DNA of 64,000 nt from an uncultured bacterium (lineage in GTDB: Bacteria > Verrucomicrobiota > Lentisphaeria > Victivallales > UBA1829): the NCBI GenBank assembly GCA_949292215.1, contig CASEYW010000084.1, positions 1-64,000 of the forward strand. The letters run 5' to 3'. Below, piece after piece: positions 25,625-61,026 of this stretch. Numbering within the stretch: the first letter of the stretch is position 1; every line of letters begins with the position of its first letter. The position numbers and the translations under genes are program-made. Under the pieces are notes generated by a model, which ran no database searches, was not told the DNA's origin, and was given only the letters and a program-made list of their open reading frames with translations.

Positions 25625-26947
25625 ATGTGGAAAAAAATGATATCGGGATATTTTGCAGTACCATTGATTTATCGCATTGTAACTGCGTTTGCTCTTGGAA
25701 TTGCGGCGGGAATTCTCTGTTCCCGCCTTTCGGCAATGTACGGAGAGGGCGTTGCAAGCGGAGTGACAACCGTTCTTGCGCCGTTTGGAACGGTGCTGAT
25801 TGCAATGTTGAAAATGGTGGTGATCCCGATCATTTTCTTTTCTCTTGTCACAGGTGCGGCCAGTCTGCCTCTGAAACAGTTTGGAAAACTGGGGCTGATG
25901 GTGGTGGTCTGGTATTTTCTGACCTCGTTTTTTGCAGCAGCGTTCGGAACAGGCCTCGCGTATCTGATGAATCCTGCGATGGAAAATGCAAATGCTCTTT
26001 CCGGTTCGTTGTTGGCTCAGGCGGGAAATATGAAAGCGGGAGCATCGGGCGGACCTTCTTTTCTTCAGTTTCTGAATGATCTTTTCATGAATCCGTTTCA
26101 GGCGCTTGCCGAAGGAAAGTTTCTGCCGATCATTGTGTTTTCCATTCTTTTTGGTCTTGCCGCAAGAACTGTAATTGAGCGATATCATGCGAAACAGCCG
26201 ATGTCCGGAGCTGTGGAAAAACTGCTGGAAATCCTGGATGCCGCGCTTCATGTATCCTATCAGATCATCGACTGGGTCATGGAATATTTTCCGGTGGGTG
26301 TGTTTGCGTTGACAACGGTCAATTTCACTCTGTACGGACCGGAACTTTTCGGTCCGTATCTTCAGATCGCAGGGTGTGTGATCTTTGGGGTGCTGCTGAT
26401 GATTTTCCTGATCTATCCTCTGCTGGTGCTGATCCTATGCCGGGAGAATCCGTATCGTCTGCTGAACAAACTCAAGGAACCAATTCTTACGGCGTTTCTG
26501 ACGCGTTCCAGTGCGGCAACTCTGCCGATTTCTCTCCGGACTGCAGGGGAACTGCGGATTCGTTCCGAGCTTTCCGGATTCGCTCTTCCGCTGGGGGCGA
26601 CAGTCAATATGGATGGCGCGTGCATTCATTTACCGGTTTTTGCGGTTCTTGCGGTGAATCTGTTTGGACTTCCGTTCGGGATTTTTCAGATTTTATTTCT
26701 GATCTTTTCTGTTGTTCTGGCATCCATCGGTGCGGGTGGAATTCCGGGAGGAAGTATTTTTCTTCTCTTTCTGGTGTTGACGAATCTCGGATTGCCGGAT
26801 GCGCAGGTGGCAATGGTCGTGGCACTTGCAATCGGAATCAACCCGCTGCTGGATATGTTTGAAACAGCGTGCAATGTCACGGGCGACAACATCTGCAATT
26901 ACATTGTCGCGCGACGGGGCGGGATGATGGAATCTTCGGAAGACTAA
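25625..26947 (+). CDS. dicarboxylate/amino acid:cation symporter (DAACS family)
   Basis: 440 residues. The family marks are LKMVVIPIIFFSLVTGAASL, the re-entrant loop serine-rich stretch AFLTRSSAATLPISL, and NMDGACIHLPVFAVL followed by GAGGIPGGSIF and ALAIGINPLLDMFETACNVT. It would import glutamate, aspartate or C4-dicarboxylates with Na+ or H+. GGGAAG lies upstream of the ATG. It is followed by the structured repeat. Confidence 0.92.
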   Translation: MWKKMISGYFAVPLIYRIVTAFALGIAAGILCSRLSAMYGEGVASGVTTVLAPFGTVLIAMLKMVVIPIIFFSLVTGAASLPLKQFGKLGLMVVVWYFLTSFFAAAFGTGLAYLMNPAMENANALSGSLLAQAGNMKAGASGGPSFLQFLNDLFMNPFQALAEGKFLPIIVFSILFGLAARTVIERYHAKQPMSGAVEKLLEILDAALHVSYQIIDWVMEYFPVGVFALTTVNFTLYGPELFGPYLQIAGCVIFGVLLMIFLIYPLLVLILCRENPYRLLNKLKEPILTAFLTRSSAATLPISLRTAGELRIRSELSGFALPLGATVNMDGACIHLPVFAVLAVNLFGLPFGIFQILFLIFSVVLASIGAGGIPGGSIFLLFLVLTNLGLPDAQVAMVVALAIGINPLLDMFETACNVTGDNICNYIVARRGGMMESSED

Positions 26948-26956
26948 GTCAAAAAC

Positions 26957-27200
26957 ATACGGAAAAATGCGAGAGCATTTTTCTCGGGTCAAGGACGTTG
27001 TCCTTGTCGCGGTCCAGCGGCGAAACGCTGGTCGTGCGGAGCACGAAATCTTCTTGAAAATTCATTTTAACATGAACTTCAGCATTAACGTTAATATTAC
27101 TTTTTATATGGAGTTTTGCCCTTTGGGCGCCCAGCTTGTTCAGCTGGACCGAAGCAGGTCACGGACCTGCACCTGCCCTTCGGCTCCTGTCCTTCGGGCA
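26957..27200. repeat. dispersed structured repeat, copy 1
   Basis: About 240 bases, matched closely by 59855-60090 (roughly 85-90% by eye, not computed). It is a chain of short palindromes: AAAAATGC-gaga-GCATTTTT (26963-26982), CAAGGAC-gtt-GTCCTTG (26990-27006), CCAGCG-N6-CGCTGG, GTGC-gga-GCAC, ATTAACGTTAAT, CCAGCT-N5-AGCTGG and GCAGGTC-acg-GACCTGC (27154-27170). It fills the gap between the convergent symporter and fucosidase genes and ends a few bases from the fucosidase stop. No transposase or target duplication was seen. It looks like a non-autonomous element or a 3'-UTR RNA structure. Confidence 0.85.
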
Positions 27201-27205
27201 TTTAT

Positions 27206-29149
27206 TTAATCGGTGATGATCTCCATCCGGAAGACGGAAGTATAGCGGCGTCCGCTGGCATTTGCCGTTGCCCGGAAACGATAGTATCTGGCCCTGGTGC
27301 TTTTTTCAAAGCGGACGACCTGCTGAATCGGCATATTCAGGATGTCGCCGAAAGAACCGCTGCCCAGAAATGTGTTGACATTATCGGGAGTGTCACCGAC
27401 ATAGAATTCATATTTGAGTATGTGTCCCGGCTGCCACGCAGGGGTGTAGATGAATCCGCGAACATCGTATGGACGTTTCATGTCAACAATGAATTCATGG
27501 GGCAGATCGGCCGTTTTTCCACTGATCCACGGATAGATGTTGTTCTGGAGGATATTTTCCTTTCGATTCTGTTCATCATATTCGCTGTCGGCAGAAAGGA
27601 CTTCCCAGTCGGTATCGGCAATGCCGAAATGGAGTTCCGCCACCGAATTTGTTTTCAGTTCCGGGAAGGCCGGATCAAATCCGGCAAGAGGAATTGTGGC
27701 AGCTCGGATAAATCCGGGGCGATCCACCTTGAACGGACCGGTATAAAGAGAGGAATCAACCGTGGGAAGAGTTCCGTCGAGGGTGTAACGGACTTCGGAT
27801 TCGTCCTGAACAGAAATTGTGATGATGCCATCTTTGTCGCGTCTGATCTCGGGAGCTTCGACGATAGGGGCGCGAAGATAGGCGGAAAACTCTTCAATCA
27901 ACGGAGTCCCTGCGGAATGGAGAATCTCCAGACGCAGTTTTTCAGCATGGAGTTTCGGGAAATTGAGAAGTCGTTTGTGACCAATTCCTTCTCCCTTGAG
28001 GAGAGGTTTCCAGCAGGTCCCGTCGAAAGCGTCAATCCGGTATTCACGGACCCGTTCTCCCCGGGTGAAATCCTCCCGCAGAAGGAGTTCGGAGACTTCC
28101 TGATTCCGCTTGATGTCAAGTTCCAGAATGTTGCCTGTTCCGGAAACGGTGTCACGCGGCAGGCTGTTGATGCGGCGGATGACATTTCCGAATTCCCGGA
28201 AAACCGTCCGGTCTGTTTCGGGAACCAGACCCCGGTTGTCAATGACCATGCCGATCAGAAAATTGGAGTTCCTGCCAACGGATTTGTAGTATCGGTCCAC
28301 GAGGGTTGCGACAGGATGAACGGCATCGTCCTGTCCCTCATGCCAGAACCAGCCGCCCTGAAAGGAGCGAACCGGATTGCGATTTGGCAGATCGCATTCA
28401 ATAGGCATGTATTCATCTCCATCCGGATTGCCCGAGCGGGTTGGATGGATGGAATCGACCGTCCCCCAGGCGGGGAGTACAGCTGTACCGTCTTCCGCAC
28501 CGGAATGGCGGATACGGTGCGGACAGCCCAGAGGTCCTCCGAACACAATGGCATCCGGCTGGAGTTTTCTCTGGAGTTCTGCAACGGGGGGGCCTCCTTG
28601 CTCCACGGGCAGGACCCCGCCGTCAAACCAAAGCTCGAACAGCGGACCATAGTTGCTCCAGAGTTCCGTAAGTTGCTGAATGACAATTTCATTGTATTTC
28701 CGGTTGTCCTCGGCTGTGCCTCCGACAACAGTTCCGGGATTGTCCACTCGCAGATAAGCATTGGCGGACGCGCTGCAATAGATTCCCGGTTTGAGTCCAT
28801 ATTTCCGACAGGATGCGATGAAATCCGCTACAATGTCGCCTTTTCCTTCTCTCCAGGGAGAACTCGCAACACTGTAGGAGTGTGCTTTGGTCGGCCAGAG
28901 AGAAAATCCGCTGCAATGTTTCGCTACGAGAATGGCATATTTTGCACCGGCTTCTGCCGCCGTGGAAATCCATTGATCCGTATTCAGTTCCGTCGGCCGG
29001 AAAATTTCAGGGCTGGGCGTGTAACCCCACTGGTCACGGAAATTGTAAGTGTTTTCAAAAACTTGAAGATCAAGATGAATAATGACCCCGATTTCAGAAC
29101 GGAGCCATTCCGTCTGTTTTGAGGTCGGCAGAACGGGCGTGTTTGACAT
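27206..29149 (-). CDS. alpha-L-fucosidase (GH29) with C-terminal F5/8-type module
   Basis: 647 residues, no signal peptide. The catalytic TIM barrel (about 1-340) has QWISTAAEAGAKYAILVAKH, CSGFSLWPTKAHSYSVASS, GLKPGIYCS and the nucleophile motif LWFDGG (D176). Residues about 420-500 resemble a chitobiase C-terminal-like domain (DESEVRYTLDGTLPTVDSSL, YTGPFKV). Residues about 530-647 resemble a discoidin/CBM32-type domain (PHEFIVDMKRPYDVRGFIYT). It would remove alpha-L-fucose from glycans in the cytoplasm, or be exported by a route not visible. AAGGAG lies eight bases before the ATG. It is a single gene. Confidence 0.9.
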   Translation of the reverse strand: MSNTPVLPTSKQTEWLRSEIGVIIHLDLQVFENTYNFRDQWGYTPSPEIFRPTELNTDQWISTAAEAGAKYAILVAKHCSGFSLWPTKAHSYSVASSPWREGKGDIVADFIASCRKYGLKPGIYCSASANAYLRVDNPGTVVGGTAEDNRKYNEIVIQQLTELWSNYGPLFELWFDGGVLPVEQGGPPVAELQRKLQPDAIVFGGPLGCPHRIRHSGAEDGTAVLPAWGTVDSIHPTRSGNPDGDEYMPIECDLPNRNPVRSFQGGWFWHEGQDDAVHPVATLVDRYYKSVGRNSNFLIGMVIDNRGLVPETDRTVFREFGNVIRRINSLPRDTVSGTGNILELDIKRNQEVSELLLREDFTRGERVREYRIDAFDGTCWKPLLKGEGIGHKRLLNFPKLHAEKLRLEILHSAGTPLIEEFSAYLRAPIVEAPEIRRDKDGIITISVQDESEVRYTLDGTLPTVDSSLYTGPFKVDRPGFIRAATIPLAGFDPAFPELKTNSVAELHFGIADTDWEVLSADSEYDEQNRKENILQNNIYPWISGKTADLPHEFIVDMKRPYDVRGFIYTPAWQPGHILKYEFYVGDTPDNVNTFLGSGSFGDILNMPIQQVVRFEKSTRARYYRFRATANASGRRYTSVFRMEIITD

Positions 29150-29378
29150 GTCGGATTCTCCTTCTGTAAATAGTCCTCCTCATTACTGATAGCTTCTCTT
29201 TCCCTATTTTCAATCCCATGAAAAGGAAATGATAAAAAATAATTTGAATCATGAATAAGAGCCGAAGATTCGATGCGGGTCCGGGAGCTGTTTCAGTTCT
29301 GCTGAACAACAGGTCGTCCGGAAGGCGAAATCCCAAAAATAGAATAAACGGAGATATTCGGAAGATGACGGAAAAGAC

Positions 29379-59527: not shown

Positions 59528-59758
59528 ATGAAAAAGCTTTTTCTGACAGCGGTCATCGTCTTTGCCGCAACAGCCGTTGTTTACGCAGGCAATAATTGTG
59601 CTGCGAAAAAAGACTGTGCCAAAAAGACGTGCGCAAAAGTGGAAAAATGCACCCCCCAGTGCACCAAGCAGGCTTGTGCTAAAGACTGCAAATGCAGCAA
59701 GTGCGTGAAAAAAGACGCTAAAGCTGCAAAAAAAGCAGTCAAAGACGCAAAAAAATAA
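59528..59758 (+). CDS. small secreted Cys/Lys-rich peptide, metallothionein-like
   Basis: 76 residues. Signal peptide MKKLFLTAVIVFAATAVVYA, predicted cleavage before GNNC. The mature part (about 56 residues) has nine Cys in repeated CAKK/CAKD/CSKC contexts (CAAKKDCAKKTCAK, CTPQCTKQAC, CKCSKC), then a Lys/Ala tail. A metal-binding or disulphide-rich role is suggested by composition and by the CusRS-like system upstream; no named family recognised. AAGGAG lies nine bases before the ATG. Followed by a hairpin and a strong terminator. Confidence 0.8.
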   Translation: MKKLFLTAVIVFAATAVVYAGNNCAAKKDCAKKTCAKVEKCTPQCTKQACAKDCKCSKCVKKDAKAAKKAVKDAKK

Positions 59759-59854: not shown

Positions 59855-60090
59855 ATACGGAAAATGCGTAAGTATTTTTTCGGGTCAAGGACTGTGTCCT
59901 TGTCGCGGTCCGGCGGCGGGAAGCTGGTCGTGCGGAGCACAAAATCTTATTGAAAATTCATTTTAATACGAACTTCAGCATTAACGTTAATATTATTTCT
60001 TATATGGAGTTTCGCCCTTTGGACGCCCTGCTTGTTCAGCTGGACCGGAGCAGGTCACTGACCTGCTCCGAGCCTTCGGTTCCTGTTTTT
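59855..60090. repeat. dispersed structured repeat, copy 2
   Basis: Second copy of 26957-27200 in the same orientation. Palindromes are kept: AAAATGC-gtaa-GTATTTT (with a G-T pair), CAAGGAC-tgt-GTCCTTG (59886-59902), GTGC-gga-GCAC, ATTAACGTTAAT, and GGAGCAGGTC-act-GACCTGCTCC (60047-60069), longer than in copy 1. It lies between the convergent Cys-peptide and epmA genes and ends about 13 bases from the epmA stop, mirroring copy 1. Confidence 0.85.
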
Positions 60091-60102: not shown

Positions 60103-61026
60103 TCAGCGGGGAAATGTGATTTCTGCAAGAGAATGTGCCCCGAAGAGGAGCATAACAATGCGGTCAAAGCCGAGCGCACATCCGGCAGAATCCGGAATGC
60201 CGTAGCGAATTGCTTCCAGAAATTCGGTCGCTTCTGGATATTCCGATAGACCGTTTTCCCGGCGTTTGCGGTTATATTTCCGGAAACGCGCTTCCTGTTC
60301 AACGGGATCGACGAGTTCGCCGTAAGCATTTGCCACTTCGACGCCATGAATGTAAATTTCCCATCGTTCCGCCAGAGTCGGATCTTCTGGTTTTGGACGT
60401 GCGAATGCTCCGAAGCGGATCGGATAGTCAATGAGGACACACGGACGATCCTTCGGCAGTTTCGGTTCCACCTGTTCAACGAGCACGGTTTCAAAAAGAG
60501 CTTCCTCTTCAGCACATTGATCGGCATCGGCACCGGCAAACTCTCGGAATGCTTTCCGGACAGGAATGATGTCCCAGTCGCAAGCGACATCGCAAATATC
60601 GGCGGGTACGTGCAATTCTTTCGCGAGAAAGCGGATCAGGCCGATGGTAAAATCCAGCAGCTCGCGATAGTCTGCTCCAGCCATATACCATTCCAGCATC
60701 GTGAATTCCTGACGATGGAGGCGACCGTTTTCACCGAGACGGAAACAGGGGGCAAGTTCATAGATTCGCTTCATTCCGGCCGCAAGCAGACGTTTCATTT
60801 CAAGTTCCGGTGAGGAACGCAGAAAGAGACCGTCTTTTGTCTGCGGAGCTTCAATGTACTCCTCTGCGGCTGGTGCGCGGATGGCGATTGGCGTTTCAAC
60901 CTCCAGGAATTGGTTTCTGCGGAAGTAATCCCTGGTAAGAGAAAGGGCATTCGATCGAAATTCGAATGCCCCTGCAAGACGGCTCAGTTCAGAGAGCGAG
61001 TCAGGCTTTATTGACGCGTTCGGCAT
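60103..61026 (-). CDS. epmA: EF-P lysine aminoacylase EpmA (lysyl-tRNA synthetase-like)
   Basis: 307 residues, a class II synthetase catalytic domain without an anticodon-binding domain, which is the mark of EpmA (PoxA/GenX). Motifs: FLEVETPIAIRAPAAEEYIE, LRSSPELEMKRLLAAGMKRI, LAPCFRLGENGRLHRQEFTM, EVANAYGELVDPVEQEARF and the motif 3 region GCALGFDRIVMLLFGAHSL. It attaches (R)-beta-lysine to EF-P. The start overlaps the efp 3' end by 26 bases, so they are one unit. EpmB, which makes beta-lysine, is not in the window. Confidence 0.93.
   Translation of the reverse strand: MPNASIKPDSLSELSRLAGAFEFRSNALSLTRDYFRRNQFLEVETPIAIRAPAAEEYIEAPQTKDGLFLRSSPELEMKRLLAAGMKRIYELAPCFRLGENGRLHRQEFTMLEWYMAGADYRELLDFTIGLIRFLAKELHVPADICDVACDWDIIPVRKAFREFAGADADQCAEEEALFETVLVEQVEPKLPKDRPCVLIDYPIRFGAFARPKPEDPTLAERWEIYIHGVEVANAYGELVDPVEQEARFRKYNRKRRENGLSEYPEATEFLEAIRYGIPDSAGCALGFDRIVMLLFGAHSLAEITFPR

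Follow-up and report, generated by a model that had tools for sequence, protein, structure and literature searches.

A dispersed family of multi-hairpin, REP/BIME-like repeats in Victivallales, probably non-autonomous and recognised as folded DNA

The segment of about 240 bp that is repeated in the window (the whole stretch of 64,000 nucleotides that was analysed) belongs to a dispersed, non-coding, REP/BIME-like repeat family of Victivallales, which is probably non-autonomous: its chain of hairpins would act as folded DNA, and the core of this chain would be recognised by a putative mover working in trans. The sequence-only reading had offered two explanations for the repeat, a non-autonomous mobile element or an RNA structure shared by 3'-UTRs. 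The former is favoured by the occurrence of copies at unrelated sites, by orthologous sites that differ in the presence and number of modules, by the decay of copies and by the lack of a recurrent neighbour gene, while the latter is disfavoured by the mixed strand of the copies, by their wobble pairs and by the silence of Rfam.

A sequence search of the window's own genome aligned 26959-27187 with 59857-60084 at 88% identity (E 2e-80), hence the repeat described earlier is real and its coordinates were right to a few bases. The count of two copies was too low, since no fewer than 43 places of the same genome match and the window itself contains a decayed third copy of the right-hand module. 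Aligned with copies of its own and of related genomes, the segment divides into three parts. The covariance model of the left-hand module A (R1) matches the right-hand module B of both copies on the minus strand, and by these matches the segment is a composite of module A, an AT-rich spacer and an inverted, diverged relative of A; this inverted doublet is present in both window copies. The modules and their neighbours are the following.

26959..27048, plus strand: module A of copy 1 (R1 103.2 bits, E 1.6e-18; 30/30 counted pairs Watson-Crick), with stems H1 CGGAAAAATGC/GCATTTTTCtCG, H2 CAAGGAC/GTCCTTG, H3 CCAGCG/CGCTGG and H4 TCGTGC/GCACGA, and ends ACGG...CGAAA
27049..27113, no strand: AT-rich spacer of copy 1, common to copy 2 and not to the other composites seen
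27114..27187, minus strand: module B of copy 1, inverted and diverged, A-like (nhmmer 71.5 bits; R1 match 27114-27185, E 0.0024)
27188..27200, plus strand: small additional hairpin TGTCCTTCGGGCA, right end of copy 1, which also gave a terminator-like match
59857..59944, plus strand: module A of copy 2, partly decayed (R1 70.9 bits, E 3.1e-12)
59945..60009, no strand: AT-rich spacer of copy 2
60010..60084, minus strand: module B of copy 2 with the extended stem GGAGCAGGTC/GACCTGCTCC (nhmmer 67.1 bits; R1 E 0.004)
29259..29330, plus strand: third B-like copy, decayed, with broken stems (nhmmer 38.4 bits)
25625..26947, plus strand: sodium:dicarboxylate symporter, left neighbour of copy 1 (PF00375, E 2e-100)
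27206..29149, minus strand: alpha-L-fucosidase, right neighbour of copy 1 (PF01120, E 7e-31)
59528..59758, plus strand: small Cys/Lys-rich protein, left neighbour of copy 2 (no Pfam match)
60103..61026, minus strand: class II (Lys-type) synthetase-like protein, right neighbour of copy 2 (PF00152, E 2e-50)

The third B-like copy lies in the gap that separates the fucosidase gene from the following gene on the minus strand. The right neighbour of copy 2 is probably EpmA, as its size and similarity suggest. Positions 27091-27100 in the spacer of copy 1 read TTAATATTAC, resembling the nonanucleotide of some rolling-circle origins, and copy 2 has TTAATATTAT; the resemblance is probably due to chance.

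The earlier description of the segment as a chain of short palindromes was borne out: module A comprises four hairpins (H1-H4) in about 90 nt and has sharp ends (ACGG...CGAAA) with unrelated flanks. When folded as single-stranded DNA and compared with dinucleotide shuffles, copy 1 had z = -6.4 and copy 2 z = -3.1. The 30 counted pairs of module A, all Watson-Crick in copy 1, are represented in copy 2 by 24 Watson-Crick, 3 G-T and 3 broken pairs with 0 compensatory changes; module A of copy 2 is simply decaying, and there is no compensatory change between the window copies. The proposal that differences between these two copies preserve pairing was therefore weak for module A, and it holds for the B stem GGAGCAGGTC alone, which is better in copy 2.

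Compensatory evolution was found among more distant copies. A set of 137 distinct copies was collected with sequence-only nhmmer because structural bias was to be avoided, and in this set pair 38-46 is Watson-Crick in 122 copies (62 expected), pair 80-88 in 131 (87 expected) and pair 7-22 in 135 (109 expected). Across families both-sided changes occurred in 25 of 31 pairs, and the covariation score was 0.339 as compared with 0.098 for shuffles and at most 0.05 for slid controls, in an alignment that leans towards the structure because it was fitted to it. The core GGTCCAGC..GCTGGTCG..CGAAA is kept across families; H1 and H2 have wholly changed and are still palindromic. Judged from these alignments, compensatory change between subfamilies and between families is real.

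Gene context was derived from rough ORF-based gene calls for the 127 copies with both neighbours. Convergent gaps held 41 of them, co-directional gaps 62 and divergent gaps 24, and the respective numbers among 132 element-free gaps were 23, 70 and 39, so that copies are enriched between convergent genes (41/127 vs 23/132, Fisher p 0.006). The convergent setting noticed at first is thus valid for both window copies, but it is not a rule. In the co-directional gaps 23 copies lie on the gene strand and 39 on the opposite one; the strand relative to the upstream gene is not fixed, which does not fit a 3'-UTR element of fixed strand. The same placement has been reported for REPs (PMC3733652). Inspection of the 127 contexts by eye gave no recurrent neighbour gene, pseudopilin-like and AraC-like genes alone being seen repeatedly.

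Modules A and B stand alone, in tandem, or adjoining a third hairpin module, C, which consists of a long and a short hairpin and often follows A in the window's genus. Together with a 20-bp tandem unit they build BIME-like intergenic mosaics, in varied combinations and with variable copy number. The 20-bp arrays are partial copies of hairpin H4, and some modules join H1-H2 of the A type to H3-H4 of the B type (L095:1579-1666), which indicates that halves have been exchanged. Units of TTATGCGAAGCACGAAATCT, which look like H4 repeats, adjoin module A at two loci (L207 and L206, in G000:C136 and G002:C15, where G000 is the window's own genome), and their number differs between genomes. A large three-way-junction palindrome, CGCCCGGAGC...GCTCCGGGCG, was observed between modules at loci L088-L096 of genus g3 and was not seen in the window's genus. 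The ends of module A are not inverted repeats, and no obvious target-site duplication was noticed by eye in its flanks.

Seven genomes, four of the window's genus and three of the sister genus, have from 23 to at least 31 strong A copies each. No such copy was found in most of the remaining genera of the family; a second Victivallales family has them in a few of its members. A scan of 85,000 species' genomes with the core pattern returned 97 stretches, nearly all in Lentisphaerota and mainly in Victivallales, including the complete genome CP071032.1; two matches outside Lentisphaerota (Sandaracinus, Planctomycetaceae) do not have the rest of the structure and were taken as chance. The core pattern was found in no viral contig, and a phage origin was rejected. 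Many copies are found no more than about 250 bases from the end of a contig (C136, C193 and C132 of G000; C21, C173 and C239 of G025); assemblies are therefore probably interrupted by the repeats, and the copy numbers are underestimated. The window's genome is a MAG with an estimated contamination of 7.8%, therefore some near-duplicate loci, on C84 (the window's contig) and C136, may represent two strains. Two EpmA-like genes of this MAG, 89% identical, each stand beside a composite (C84 60103-61026, C136 491-1411), and these two loci are probably two strains binned together.

Comparison of sister species revealed how the modules come and go. The flanks of G000 copies mostly met different gene neighbourhoods in G001 and G002, and it was the sister species G003 that proved useful here, with about half of the sites tested being common to G003 and G000. 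At several sites A is missing in G000 and C, or part of it, is usually still there; one site has A-C-A in G003 and a single decayed A in G000, and another has A and B in G003 and a decayed A, with no B, in G000. A site on the groEL side is devoid of modules in G002 and contains C alone in G000 and C-A-part of C in G003, and at a further site G002 and G003 have an A that G000 lacks. The search for empty sites suggested by the sequence-only reading thus yielded presence/absence differences at orthologous sites, though not a clean single-step pair of empty and filled site, and at most sites insertion and deletion are inseparable. Both gain and loss of modules occur, and gain may be transposition, duplication or conversion; in the case that could be polarised, additional C sequence came along with the gained A, so recombination may also account for it. 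Since many sites are common to the sister species, movement is slow or old, and it may be gene conversion, and not transposition, that keeps the copies similar. Broken stems, which had been named in advance as an argument against the element, do occur, in old copies; such decay speaks against a site-specific function and not against mobility.

None of the candidate movers could be connected with the modules. Y1_Tnp (PF01797) was not found in the copy-rich but incomplete MAGs G000, G002 and G025, and neither A nor B was seen beside any of the Y1 loci that were fetched, so a link to a RAYT/IS200-type transposase was rejected. TnpB, IS110 and reverse transcriptase were rejected as movers because their presence does not track the element. 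A single reverse transcriptase gene is present per genome (G000:C59:116403-116966, G001:C2, G003:C436, G005:C18); these genes are similar in length and possibly belong to a diversity-generating retroelement. Rfam gave no match at the gathering score; its U2 and miRNA matches were considered chance, and a likeness to the hammerhead ribozyme (GUC...GAAA, by eye) was dismissed since the module lacks the CUGANGA core and had no Rfam match. A composite transposon, imagined from inverted A-B-B pairs 15 kb apart (G000:C136, G002:C15), was dropped because both genomes have the segment in synteny and its genes look ordinary.

In the mechanism that we propose, the hairpin chain would act as folded DNA, most likely as single strands exposed at replication. 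A putative mobilising enzyme, provided in trans, would recognise the core GGTCC-H3-GGTCG-H4-CGAAA, and the outer hairpins H1 and H2 would need palindromy alone. After insertion the copies may be reshaped via tandem duplication and via slippage or recombination between short repeats, and would then decay neutrally. A more far-reaching version, that the family represents a distinct class of mobile DNA whose fixed core is read on the folded strand by a putative Victivallales enzyme other than HUH-Y1, the outer hairpins varying and remaining palindromic, is put forward only tentatively and has a rather small chance of being correct.

Alternatively, the modules could be structured RNAs (3'-UTR elements, bidirectional terminators or small RNAs) that are multicopy by chance and whose stems are kept as transcript folds. 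The strong covariation over four stems, the conserved loops and linkers, the enrichment in convergent and lower share of divergent gaps, and the terminator-like scores of H1 and the terminal hairpin in copy 1 would agree with this, as would the 12 G-T vs 5 A-C wobbles in the small, structure-fitted cross-family alignment. However, in the larger sequence-only set of 137 copies the wobbles have no strand preference (58 G-T vs 62 A-C), a result at odds with selection acting on a single RNA strand, and together with the unfixed gene orientation this makes DNA hairpins fit better than a 3'-UTR RNA. Considering also the absence of an Rfam match, the T-run of H1 that is interrupted in the sister genus (GCATTCTTC) and the numerous decayed copies, we regard the transcript explanation as quite unlikely.

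Recombination or protein-binding sites for chromosome organisation, as proposed for BIMEs, might in turn be spread by gene conversion and duplication and have no dedicated transposase. The tandem and inverted arrays, the spacers common to nearby sites of one genome (copies 1 and 2 of the window, and the pairs on G000:C136 and G002:C15), the frequent duplication and loss and the failure to find a mover are all in line with such sites, but the patchy distribution, with most genera of the same family devoid of modules, and the decay of single copies make this role unlikely. It is improbable as well that we deal with ordinary REPs whose RAYT was missed because the MAGs are incomplete: the mosaic, inverted-dimer, intergenic anatomy matches, CGTC-type REPs are also known without transposase (PMC3733652) and G001 has one Y1_Tnp gene, yet this domain is absent in the three copy-rich genomes G000, G002 and G025, the Y1 loci fetched have no A or B beside them, the consensus has no GTAG tag, and the unit is far from a 20-40 nt palindrome. 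Non-autonomous DNA hairpins recognised in trans thus remain the reading that we prefer.

It should be emphasized that the literature search returned no paper on such repeats for this bacterial group; the present family adds a large, order-specific multi-hairpin repeat with clear compensatory evolution, apparently at the level of DNA. MITEs and miniature elements derived from IS200-IS605 are non-coding, have structured ends and are mobile in trans. Our modules are likewise non-coding and structured, but A has no terminal inverted repeats, no target duplication was seen and no Y1 transposase was found in the genome. BOX elements are modular, gene-free interspersed repeats in which the number of internal units varies, and in all these respects the modules resemble them. 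The BOX elements of Streptococcus pneumoniae (PMC3049150) differ, however, in lineage and sequence, and are not a four-hairpin chain with a shared core.

The closest likeness is to the RAYT-associated REP sequences, REPINs and BIMEs (PMC3116915, PMC2817692), with which the modules share that they are short, extragenic and palindromic, exist in tens of copies, form inverted doublets with a spacer and mosaics with other motifs, are enriched in convergent gaps and fall into lineage-specific subfamilies. Unlike REPs, which are palindromes of 20-40 nt with a GTAG (or CGTC) tag at one end, module A has about 90 nt and four hairpins, with neither GTAG nor CTAC in its consensus; several copy-rich genomes, all incomplete MAGs, have no RAYT, and whole hairpins change compensatorily around a conserved core across an order. 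The CGTC-tagged REPs are also palindromic, intergenic and devoid of a dedicated transposase, but they are described as a single stem of 8-9 bp that bears CGTC at one of its ends and AT in positions 1-2, together with a CCA tail (PMC3733652), which the stems of module A do not fit. In anatomy and behaviour the family appears REP/BIME-like, and the criteria applied here place it outside the tagged REPs. It raises the same question as do the CGTC REPs, namely how a palindromic repeat can spread without a recognisable transposase.
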